This document shows positions 5,132-47,837 of a stretch of DNA of 64,000 nt, in pieces. The translations under genes were made by a program, and so were the position numbers. The notes beneath the pieces were generated by a model. It made no database searches. It had not been told where the DNA came from and saw nothing but the letters and a program-made list of their open reading frames with translations. Location: contig JAKAPJ010000001.1 of assembly GCA_021807115.1 (NCBI GenBank), forward strand, positions 29,830 through 93,829, written 5' to 3'. Positions within the stretch are counted from its first letter, which is position 1; each line of letters starts with the position of its first letter. The DNA is from Microcaldota archaeon (lineage in GTDB: Archaea; Micrarchaeota; Micrarchaeia; Micrarchaeales; Micrarchaeaceae).

Positions 5132-5692
5132 CTAGCGCCATCCCCTGAGCAAGGCGCGCATTATTCTGCTCGGTGGCAGAGAGGCGTCTATGAACCTCAG
5201 GCCAGCCATCCTTGCCTGTCTGTCCGCATAGTTTTTCCATGCGAGTATCATCCTCATCTGGTGCGGGGCCTTGCCGAAATCGTTGTCCCTGCCGCGGCTC
5301 GCCAGCCTCTTGTGTATCAGGGCGCGGCTTGCCTTGAGGTAGTACGCCTCATTGAAAAGCGTAACAATGTCATAGAGGTTGTGCGGTATGCCGAATACAA
5401 ATACATCCCTTCTACAATTGAGCAGGGCTCTCAGCCTCCTTTCGCTCCATACCCAGTAATTCCTGGAAAGCCATTCTTGGCTGGCGTCCTTGGGGTAGCT
5501 CACCGCCCTCCCCTTGCCATTTACCCACTTGGCAAGCCCGTGTACAGCGTCGCCGTCATATGCGTTCAGGCTCCTACGCCTGAAATAGCGGGCCAAATAG
5601 GTTTTCCCGCTGCCTGATATTCCCGTAATAAGCACGCGCCTGTGCATACAAGTATGATGGGTGCATACAAAATTAAAGAGTAGCGGCAGCAC
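5132..5692 (-). CDS. P-loop NTPase/kinase-like protein (likely start at 5647, MHRRVLITG)
   Basis: Walker A GISGSGKT; intact homolog of the frameshifted ORF pair at 45892..46537. Confidence 0.75.
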   Translation of the reverse strand: MLPLLFNFVCTHHTCMHRRVLITGISGSGKTYLARYFRRRSLNAYDGDAVHGLAKWVNGKGRAVSYPKDASQEWLSRNYWVWSERRLRALLNCRRDVFVFGIPHNLYDIVTLFNEAYYLKASRALIHKRLASRGRDNDFGKAPHQMRMILAWKNYADRQARMAGLRFIDASLPPSRIMRALLRGWR

Positions 5693-45385: not shown

Positions 45386-45886
45386 TCACCCTATAATTTT
45401 TTCCCAAAATATCTCGTCCTCACCGTATGCATGCCTTTTTGCAACTCCTATTTTTCTGAACCCCATTTTAGTAAAGAACTTCTTTGCGTTCTTATTGTTC
45501 GGATTCGAATCACACCACACTTTATGGCAACCGCGCCTTTTTGCGTCCCTAATTGCATAGTTAACTAGGGCTCTGCCCAACCCCCGTTTCCTAAGTGTAT
45601 CATCCACGAGCAGCCAATCTATCCAGCCCACATGGCCATGGCCTATGTAATGCACGCAAAAACCCACGACCTTGCCCTCTTTTGTTGTAGCAATTATTAT
45701 ACTGTCTTTTGTCCTGAATGTGTCCTTGAGGTCCTTGACACTAAGCTCATAGATATTCCTCCTCATATGTTCCTTGTTGTAGAACTTCATCGATTTTACT
45801 ATAGGGGTCCCAAACCTGCTTATGGCTGGAATATCTTTAATCGTTGCAAATCTTATGTCAAAATCTTCAGTTTGCAAATCCATCAC
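45386..45886 (-). CDS. GNAT-family N-acetyltransferase
   Basis: 'WLLVDDTLRKRGLGRALVNYAIRDAKRRGCHKVWCDSNPNNKNAKKFFTKMGFRKIG'. Confidence 0.92.
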   Translation of the reverse strand: MMDLQTEDFDIRFATIKDIPAISRFGTPIVKSMKFYNKEHMRRNIYELSVKDLKDTFRTKDSIIIATTKEGKVVGFCVHYIGHGHVGWIDWLLVDDTLRKRGLGRALVNYAIRDAKRRGCHKVWCDSNPNNKNAKKFFTKMGFRKIGVAKRHAYGEDEIFWEKIIG

Positions 45887-45891
45887 ATAAG

Positions 45892-46465
45892 TTATTTTGC
45901 CCTAGGCCGTGAAAAGAAGACGCCTGATCGGATTCGAACAGGACCTGAAATCCCCTGATTTCCATCACCGATAACAAAATCAAATATCTTCTTCGGTGAC
46001 ATTGAGACATCGACACAAATAAAACCATGTTCCTTCGCCTTCCTGTCCATTGATGGTATCCAACTTAGTACCATCTCACGCTGCTTTCTCCCTTTCCCAA
46101 ACCTATTCTTCCTTCGCTCGCTTCTAAGCCTCTCCGATACCAAATTTCTATTCGCCTTCAGGTAATAGACCTTATCGAAAAGGTCTGCAATGGTCTCATT
46201 GCGGTTCGCGTTTCCAAACAAATACAGTTCCTTATTGGCCTTCAGTATCTGCTTAACCGCTTTTCTGTCCCATTCCCACCAGTAAGTCGCAAAATGTTCG
46301 TTGCTTACCTGTTTCTTAGCGAAAGTTTTTGACTTCATTTTTGTCTACCCATCTAGCAAGACCTTTGACAGAATCAGCGTTAATGGCATTCACACCCATG
46401 CGCTTAAAGTATCTACACAGATAGGTCTTACCGCTTCCTGCACTGCCAGTGATTAGAACATGCAT
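45892..46465 (-). pseudogene. P-loop kinase-like gene interrupted by a one-base frame change near 46330-46350
   Basis: 46316..46537 supplies GSAGSGKTYLCRYF...LARWVDK; 45892..46338 supplies the rest; joined product aligns gap-free to the 5132..5692 paralog across the junction. Confidence 0.75.
45917..45946 (-). other. degenerate tRNA 3'-end-like sequence (remnant 1)
   Basis: Minus strand GGTCCTGTTCGAATCCGATCAGGCGTC; compare tRNA-Asp tail GGGTTCGAATCCCGGCCAAGGCGTC. Confidence 0.55.
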
Positions 46466-46490
46466 GCTTATAGGTACCACCGAAGATTTA

Positions 46491-46522
46491 AAAGACGTCC
46501 TGGCCCAGATTCGAACACGGAC
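46491..46522 (-). other. degenerate tRNA 3'-end-like sequence (remnant 2)
   Basis: Minus strand AGTCCGTGTTCGAATCTGGGCCAGGACGTCTT. Confidence 0.55.
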
Positions 46523-46568
46523 TGCAACACGCTTCACACTTTAAATTTTGACATAAATTTACCATCTC

Positions 46569-46991
46569 TCAAGCCTTGGTATAATAAAACAGCACGAAAT
46601 ACGAAAGGAGTGCAAAAATGAAGCCAATGCTCATAGTAAACGAAAACAGATTATTTTGGAATGCGTACACCATGAATTCTATTCCAGAGACGAAGGCAAC
46701 AAAGACTGAGATGAAACCAGCGAGCGAGATAAGGAGTGTGTTTCTATTACGTAACCTGTATGTAATAACGACCATAGCGATAGACCAGAAAAAGAGCAAC
46801 ACGCCGAGAAGATAATGAACTAGAAGAACCGGATACTGCAGAAAAGTGGGCACATATTGATTCGGTTGTATTATTCCGGAGGGAAATGTGGGGAATGTCG
46901 TAAAGAGGTTTAGTGTCATCCCTAGAATAAATTGAATAGTCAAAAACACCAGCAATCCCGCTGCGGCCCGGTGTAGAATCCTTTTGTCCAT
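46569..46991 (-). CDS. small 4-TM-like membrane protein (likely start MDKRIL)
   Basis: Upstream part of the 47054 ORF is antisense-free read-through of tRNA-Asp; first sensible ATG about 46991; hydrophobic segments. Confidence 0.6.
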   Translation of the reverse strand: MDKRILHRAAAGLLVFLTIQFILGMTLNLFTTFPTFPSGIIQPNQYVPTFLQYPVLLVHYLLGVLLFFWSIAMVVITYRLRNRNTLLISLAGFISVFVAFVSGIEFMVYAFQNNLFSFTMSIGFIFALLSYFVLFYYTKA

Positions 46992-47024
46992 GGTAAAGAT
47001 TATGTCAAAGTGTTTAAAATAAGA

Positions 47025-47097
47025 CGCCTTGGCCGGGATTCGAACCCGGGTCACAAGCGTGACAGGCTCGTATGCTAGACCACTACACTACCAAGGC
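47025..47097 (-). tRNA. tRNA-Asp (GTC)
   Basis: GCCTTGG/CCAAGGC acceptor; CGAGC-CTGTCAC-GCTTG anticodon arm; CCGGGTTCGAATCCCGG T-arm. Confidence 0.93.
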
Positions 47098-47135
47098 GCA
47101 CAACAACTATTATTGATTTAAGAAGACTTAAAGCA

Positions 47136-47639
47136 CTATCTTCTGGGTTTCAGTACGCCCCTGTCTGATCCTATCCAGTTCTTTTTGCCCGATATCTTCC
47201 GCCTTACTGCCTCGAGCTCCTTGTCATCCGCCCGTGGTCCCATCATGGTGGTAACGAAGCCCGGATAGCTCGTGAAGTATATATTCTCCTTGGCAATGGC
47301 CTGCCTGAAGAGTTTGCTTGTCCCTATTGCCGGGTAAAGCTTAGCGTGCAAGTGGTTCACGCTTGTGCCCTCAAACACTATGTGCACCCTTCCAACATTA
47401 AGTTTCCTTTCCAAAAGTTTAGCCACCTTTTTGGTTGTCGCCATAAGCTCCGCCAGTTCAATGTTGCTCAGGTCAAATACGTAACTTGGTACATGCCTTT
47501 TGGGTATGACAAGAGTCTGGCCTTTGATGTTAGGGTATATATCCAGTATCCCAATAAAGCTCCTGTCCTCATATACATTGTAGGACGGCAGTTCGCCCTT
47601 TACTATCTTGCAGAAAATACAGCTAGGATCTTCGGCCAT
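47136..47639 (-). CDS. HIT-family hydrolase
   Basis: 'CIFCKIVKGELPSYNVYED', 'HLHAKLYP'. Confidence 0.88.
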   Translation of the reverse strand: MAEDPSCIFCKIVKGELPSYNVYEDRSFIGILDIYPNIKGQTLVIPKRHVPSYVFDLSNIELAELMATTKKVAKLLERKLNVGRVHIVFEGTSVNHLHAKLYPAIGTSKLFRQAIAKENIYFTSYPGFVTTMMGPRADDKELEAVRRKISGKKNWIGSDRGVLKPRR

Positions 47640-47732
47640 CAAATCACGGCGGTAAGTTTGCACCATTTTTAATCGTATCCCATATGCAGGCGGGCGCCCG
47701 CCCCAATGTATGCCATCCCCAATAAAGTCTAA

Positions 47733-47837
47733 TCCCGTCGGGGCGAGTCGAACGCCCAACCTATCGGTATCTAACATGCATTGCACGTTAGCAACGGCAA
47801 ACTACAGCCGATCGCTCTGCCATTGAGCTACGACGGG
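47733..47837 (-). tRNA. tRNA-Tyr (GTA) with intron in the anticodon loop
   Basis: C1-G72 acceptor CCCGTCG/CGACGGG; anticodon stem ATCGG..CCGAT split by about 30 nt; T-arm GGGCGTTCGACTCGCCC. Confidence 0.88.

Follow-up and report, generated by a model that had tools for sequence, protein, structure and literature searches.

Probable relic of serially inserted, integrase-less tRNA-tail cassettes behind a tRNA-Asp gene in Micrarchaeota

The locus behind the tRNA-Asp gene in the window (the whole 64,000-nucleotide stretch of DNA analysed) is probably a relic array of small, non-autonomous 'tRNA-tail cassettes', units without an integrase that entered one after another at tRNA 3' ends and were mobilised in trans. 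In each unit, a single gene or small operon would be closed by a terminal element and, after it, a duplicate of the tRNA's 3' end. A circular form of the unit is envisaged to recombine with the 3' end of the tRNA gene, so that the tail brought in by the circle makes the tRNA whole and the previous tail is displaced outward behind the new gene. Repeated rounds would lead to the order tRNA-gene-tail-gene-tail-gene, in which the newest unit presumably lies nearest the tRNA and the outer tails are free to decay. Mobilisation in trans is the most likely route because the right-end element of the units is common to elements that carry a tyrosine integrase; the recombinase would be the family-II integrase of full elements sharing the terminal block R1.

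The tRNA-Asp array in the window

The source genome of the window (G000) is a 1.18-Mb draft in 44 contigs. On the minus strand, which carries all the features of the array, the order is tRNA-Tyr, a HIT gene, tRNA-Asp, a membrane-protein gene, tail 2, a kinase gene, tail 3 and a GNAT gene. A tRNA-like gene at 47733, which ARAGORN did not name, is a tRNA-Tyr(GTA) with a 33-nt intron (47733-47837); this left neighbour of the array is conserved, and in most relatives tRNA-Tyr lies upstream of tRNA-Asp. The HIT-family protein gene (47136-47666; Pfam HIT, 1.4e-11) forms the conserved left flank of the integration site, and its homologue adjoins tRNA-Asp in about 35 fetched loci. The intact tRNA-Asp(GTC) at 47023-47098 (ARAGORN; Rfam RF00005) is the insertion target. 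Beyond it lie unit 1, of about 530 bp (46492-47022), comprising a leader, the membrane-protein gene, a partial terminal element and tail 2, and unit 2, of about 575 bp (45917-46491), comprising a leader, the frameshifted kinase gene and tail 3.

Two degenerate copies of the tRNA-Asp 3' end had been predicted here, and both were confirmed by comparison with shuffled sequence. Tail 2 (46520-46492) matches the tRNA-Asp 3' end and flank at 24 of 29 nt without gaps, and tail 3 (45939-45917), the most decayed copy, aligns with the 3' end with two 1-nt gaps; each beats dinucleotide shuffles of its own region (p<=0.0005 in both cases). The control gene, HIT, matches the tRNA-Asp 3' end at chance level only. 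Both tails are on the same strand as tRNA-Asp and each closes a short gene. Their T-stems are broken, with three of five pairs left in tail 2 and two of five in tail 3. Under the insertion model, tail 3 would be the original end of tRNA-Asp, pushed away from the tRNA, and its more advanced decay fits a newest-next-to-tRNA order, of which two tails are no proof. A decayed tail behind GNAT was sought in G019 and in the window, with no significant match.

The gene of unit 1 (46569-46991) encodes a 140-aa membrane protein without a Pfam or NCBIfam family, and its stop codon falls within the GGCTTGAGAG motif of the terminal element; a homologue sits between two tails in another genus (G023). The second gene (45892-46465) had been read as a P-loop kinase. 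Its N-terminus is indeed kinase-like (AAA_18/CoaE-like), but the gene is a pseudogene, frameshifted into two overlapping ORFs (46465-46316 in frame 1; 46338-45892 in frame 2, which reads through tail 3), and its homologues are single ORFs of 167-171 aa that span both frames. A second, more distant kinase relative (34%) lies at 5159-5494 on the minus strand of the window. In the window, no tail follows the GNAT acetyltransferase gene (45386-45886). The GTDB relatives reached via this gene are all Candidatus Micrarchaeota MAGs, and the window is accordingly taken to be micrarchaeal; GNAT follows tRNA-Asp directly in G019, whilst in G138 it follows tRNA-Asp and one gene and is itself followed by a hairpin and a decayed tail. 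Other GNAT relatives lie after tRNA-Ala (G010 and G008) and after tRNA-Asn (L165).

The arithmetic behind the reported spacing of 46, 43 and 45 nt between each tRNA or tail end and the next start codon (starts at 46991, 46465 and 45886) is right, but its constancy fails in relatives, where the first gene of a unit mostly begins some 20 to 110 nt past the tRNA or tail end. Given this wide variation, a constant 45-nt spacing was rejected as a functional feature.

Empty and filled sites in related genomes

With the tRNA-Asp gene as query, serial copies of its 3' end were found behind tRNA-Asp in several genera among 40 relatives, and a 22-nt tail pattern revealed more copies across 164 genomes of the order. 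At 92 oriented tRNA-Asp loci, extra tails numbered 25 downstream on the same strand (within 6 kb), one on the opposite strand and none upstream on either strand; some of these loci were picked for having several tails, so that the figure of 25 should not be taken as a frequency, and it is the bias of strand and side that counts. Most loci retain tRNA-Tyr and HIT as left neighbours, and the right side is hypervariable. A search for further combinations of a tRNA tail and an ORF found such units in several genera of the same order, including an ordered array of three units in G010.

The comparison of presence and absence in close relatives, proposed with the original prediction, was informative in one genus (g3), where the site is followed by a common set of chromosomal genes, F2-F5-F6-F7. 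In G121 tRNA-Asp directly abuts F2, giving a clean empty site. This F2 end comes after a tail copy in G118 and G015, where a VapBC unit, accompanied in G015 by a kinase gene, lies between tRNA and tail. Five other members of the genus have different genes at the site without a recognisable tail. At the level of sequence comparison, these empty and filled sites demonstrate insertion, with duplication of the tail, directly.

The VapBC units of G118 and G015 are 90% identical in DNA over 678 nt, as against 67% in the right flank and 69-70% in the left. G121, at 79% in the flank, is more closely related to G015 and yet is without the unit. As the 90% identity is set within such diverged flanks and the unit is missing from the closer relative, horizontal transfer of a block of about 0.7 kb is the conclusion.

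Unit ends, cargo and integrases

Twenty-seven units, the window's included, were delimited. They range from 417 to 3693 bp (median 969), as a rule measure 0.4-1.9 kb and mostly hold one or two genes, with the main genes directed away from the tRNA in 22 of the 27. An integrase-like ORF was found in none of the 27, and fragments or remnants of an integrase are absent from 26; the exception is a restriction-modification (R-M) unit in G125, in which a remnant adjoins the tRNA. Some units may accordingly be shrunken larger elements. The cargo, often toxin-antitoxin, includes VapBC, a ParE/YafQ-type toxin with partner, AbiEi/AbiEii, Fic, an R-M pair, DUF4258/DUF2283, small membrane proteins and hydrolases. 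Genes for SET and isochorismatase proteins adjoin tRNA-Asp or tails in several genomes, and at tRNA-Leu in G010 the same kind of unit carries a PIN toxin and ends in a 28/28 tail.

When the 150 nt ahead of each tail were compared across units, ends belonging to unrelated cargo proved alike: a cupin unit in G010 and the VapBC and kinase unit in G015, from different genera, are 90.6% identical over 139 nt, and the end of window unit 1 is 83% identical to one in G011 over 52 nt, tail excluded. This terminal element contains an AT-rich TTATAAA box flanked by an inverted repeat (ACCCGA ... GGGTTCG), together with a GCTTGAGAG motif. Its GGGTTCGA half-motif resembles the T-arm core GGGTTCGAATCCC, a likeness which suggests repeated, putative recombinase binding sites. 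Ahead of the tail stands a short hairpin, with stem ends picked by eye, whose two sides co-vary between GTAAATTT/AAATTTAC, CAAAATTT/AAATTTTG and CAAAATCA/TGATTTTG; these compensatory changes are suggestive of a local hairpin. A whole-alignment structure computed with RNAalifold gave little, and the terminal element was rejected as a known RNA family after Rfam returned no match above chance. The window retains just the 3' half of the element, at the end of unit 1 (46492-46576), where the GGCTTGAGAG motif, the hairpin (46562-46555 with 46548-46541) and the tail were recovered by nhmmer at E=2.2e-7 over all fetched loci and 5e-9 in a local scan.

R1 is a 92-nt block of this element, modelled on sequence only and with the tRNA tail excluded. 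The model matches in 37 of 164 genomes, from 20 genera, and a T-arm-like tRNA tail (Asp, Glu, Lys, Asn, Ala and others) lies downstream in 31 of 34 inspected matches, some of which are near-duplicates, making the effective number lower. Several units, those of the window among them, do not contain R1 proper.

Sequence retrieved from as far as 20 kb upstream of R1 matches contained full elements of 3-12 kb, with the order tRNA, integrase, cargo, R1 and tail, at about ten genomic places and with tails matching at 28-33 of 33 positions. They include elements at tRNA-Lys in G138 (4.4 kb), tRNA-Arg in G002 (5.0 kb) and tRNA-Asn in G070 (9.0 kb), each with a 33/33 tail, and others at tRNA-Asn in G010 (9.3 kb), tRNA-Glu in G012 (8.8 kb) and tRNA-Arg in G040 (11.1 kb). 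All ten loci searched carry one family of tyrosine integrase, termed family-II, and most members are 55-63% identical to the one that immediately follows tRNA-Asp in G008, a genome which also has R1 and an Asp tail on another contig. The G138 integrase appears in two pieces. Small tRNA-Lys units in G118 (1.49 kb) and G038 (0.95 kb) have R1 and a tail without an integrase. R1 is thus the common end of small units and family-II integrase elements, as in pairs of non-autonomous and autonomous partners; the search for an integrase found none inside the units but did find one in related elements with the same end sequence. A second integrase family of about 400 aa, also found behind tRNAs including tRNA-Asp, was set aside as the favoured partner, there being no R1 in the few loci fetched.

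The window's own genome encodes five tyrosine integrases, all directly downstream of a tRNA and on the same strand: on contigs C34, C2, C37, C29 and C32, behind tRNAs Glu-ttc, Glu-ctc, Thr, Lys and Leu. None adjoins the tRNA-Asp of the window. With its partial element end and frameshifted kinase, and without R1 or a tRNA-Asp integrase, the array is best read as an old, decaying relic. It looks inactive now, since R1 proper is absent, one gene is a pseudogene and tRNA-Asp lacks an integrase.

A toxin-antitoxin pair with a conserved, operator-like TATTAAT/ATTAATA palindrome (L231-L258) recurs among the 164 genomes and is present in 29; some six copies immediately follow tRNA-Asp tails, and a few others follow different tRNAs. 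On two G010 contigs (C24 and C40; L094 and L162), two adjacent units with unrelated cargo begin, past the tRNA or tail, with a common leader of about 68 nt (91% identity). The left-end sequence may therefore be conserved too, judging from these leaders.

Competing explanations and known systems

Small units might never have been mobile, but be what remains of full integrase-bearing elements at tRNA-Asp that lost their middles and kept one cargo gene near the right end. The 3-12 kb elements with the same R1 end at other tRNAs are compatible with this, as are the existence of intermediate sizes (2-4 kb) and the integrase remnant next to the tRNA in G125. However, 26 of 27 units have no such remnant, the 0.7-kb VapBC block occupies the same site despite diverged flanks, and related ParE/RelE-type toxin-antitoxin units lie right behind tRNA-Asp tails in several genera and two families. 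Moreover, the tails of small units are often flawless or nearly so (26/26 in G118, G094, G097 and G010), which argues that these units are recent. Deletion is on these grounds an improbable source of the units as a whole. A tandem duplication of tRNA-Asp, or an exchange through the conserved tRNA-Tyr/HIT/tRNA-Asp flank, could also have brought in the genes, and in G063, G094 and G097 the second copy is indeed a nearly complete tRNA-Asp. This origin is very unlikely, as most units copy the 3' end only and unrelated cargo shares a terminal element that is absent from the tRNA flank; in addition, both flanks of the VapBC unit have diverged, so no long homologous tract came along with it.

The original prediction had offered, as an alternative to insertion, that T-arm-like tails are retained as signals for tRNA-type processing which set mRNA 5' ends. 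The window tails do lie just upstream of start codons, and in relatives a hairpin with compensatory changes stands ahead of the tail. Nevertheless, this idea has hardly any claim to belief: the T-stems in the window are broken and tails decay freely, the distance to the start codon varies elsewhere, many tails abut chromosomal flanks or stand before oppositely oriented genes, and genomes without units have no tails. The other proposal, repeated insertion of single-gene modules at the tRNA 3' end, is supported by the strand- and side-specific tails, the empty site, the 90% identical VapBC unit and the shared ends.

An island that integrates into the 3' end of a tRNA gene rebuilds the tRNA and leaves a 3' fragment displaced (Islander type, PMC4383910), and tandem integration at tRNA genes is known, as are archaeal tyrosine-recombinase elements (PMC8371274). 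The units resemble such islands in their target, in the intact tRNA at one end and the displaced 3' fragment as a direct repeat at the other, and in the empty site in a close relative. They differ in size and autonomy, the known archaeal islands being kilobases long with their own integrase. Thaumarchaeal cryptic integrated elements span 2.6-98 kb (median 17 kb), and even the 2.6-kb one encodes an integrase (PMC6563490); Thermococcaceae elements measure 9-23 kb (PMC9897764). SSV-type elements differ again, as 26 of the 27 units have no N- or C-terminal integrase fragments at their ends. In the Caldiarchaeum tRNA-Thr locus, the insert is 1.8 kb long, carries a recombinase gene and gives rise to a 5' fragment and introns (PMC3293823). 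Population heterogeneity and tRNA fragments made by an element integrating at a tRNA are common to both cases, whereas the present inserts are recombinase-free and leave 3' tails. MITE-like elements and phage or plasmid satellites likewise have terminal recombination sequences in common with their autonomous relatives, and no recombinase gene of their own; unlike them, the units carry ordinary accessory genes, singly, and accumulate in order at one tRNA.

Integron cassettes and CALINs offer a further parallel, with single-gene or toxin-antitoxin cassettes in tandem between elements resembling recombination sites (as in G010, G011 and the window) and an integrase that acts in trans, as is presumed for the units. 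Entry is through a tRNA gene here and through attI in integrons. In 13 termini the attC box RYYYAAC was not found and GTTRRRY was sporadic only; two clade integrases scored 23 and 41 bits against the 265-bit cut-off of the integron integrase model, and no IntI-type integrase is adjacent to the window array. For these reasons, the units are not filed as integrons. Such units were not described for Micrarchaeota in the open-licence papers searched, and they are regarded as a variant, not reported in those papers, of tRNA-targeted integrative elements. A bolder and distinctly tentative reading is that Micrarchaeota have an integron-like mode of gene capture independent of integrons. In it, tRNA 3' ends would be entry sites, attC-like R1-hairpin-tail sites would be recognised partly by structure, and co-resident tyrosine integrases would shuffle single genes, often toxin-antitoxin genes, in trans across genera.

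To our knowledge, gene gain by gene-poor, host-dependent archaea is poorly known. The tRNA-tail units reveal a precise route, one gene at a time and with readable boundaries, such that cassettes, empty sites and partner integrases become cataloguable in any Micrarchaeota assembly. The R1-tail is a candidate recombination site that can be tested in vitro. The units also account for odd tRNA fragments and contig breaks beside tRNA genes in such genomes.

Several contigs stop at, or within a few bases of, a tRNA-Asp 3' end or tail (G002:C67, G012:C30 and G015:C28), as would happen if the tail were a repeat with cassettes beyond it that vary in the population. One MAG, G088, has tRNA-Tyr and tRNA-Asp on two contigs (C20 and C22; L159 and L160) with different right sides, SET following directly on one and after an extra gene on the other; this may be strain variation at the site. 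In four genomes, tRNA-Asp contains an intron or unusual insertion of 22 to about 70 nt (G019:C22, G005:C41, G032:C11 and G030:C6).
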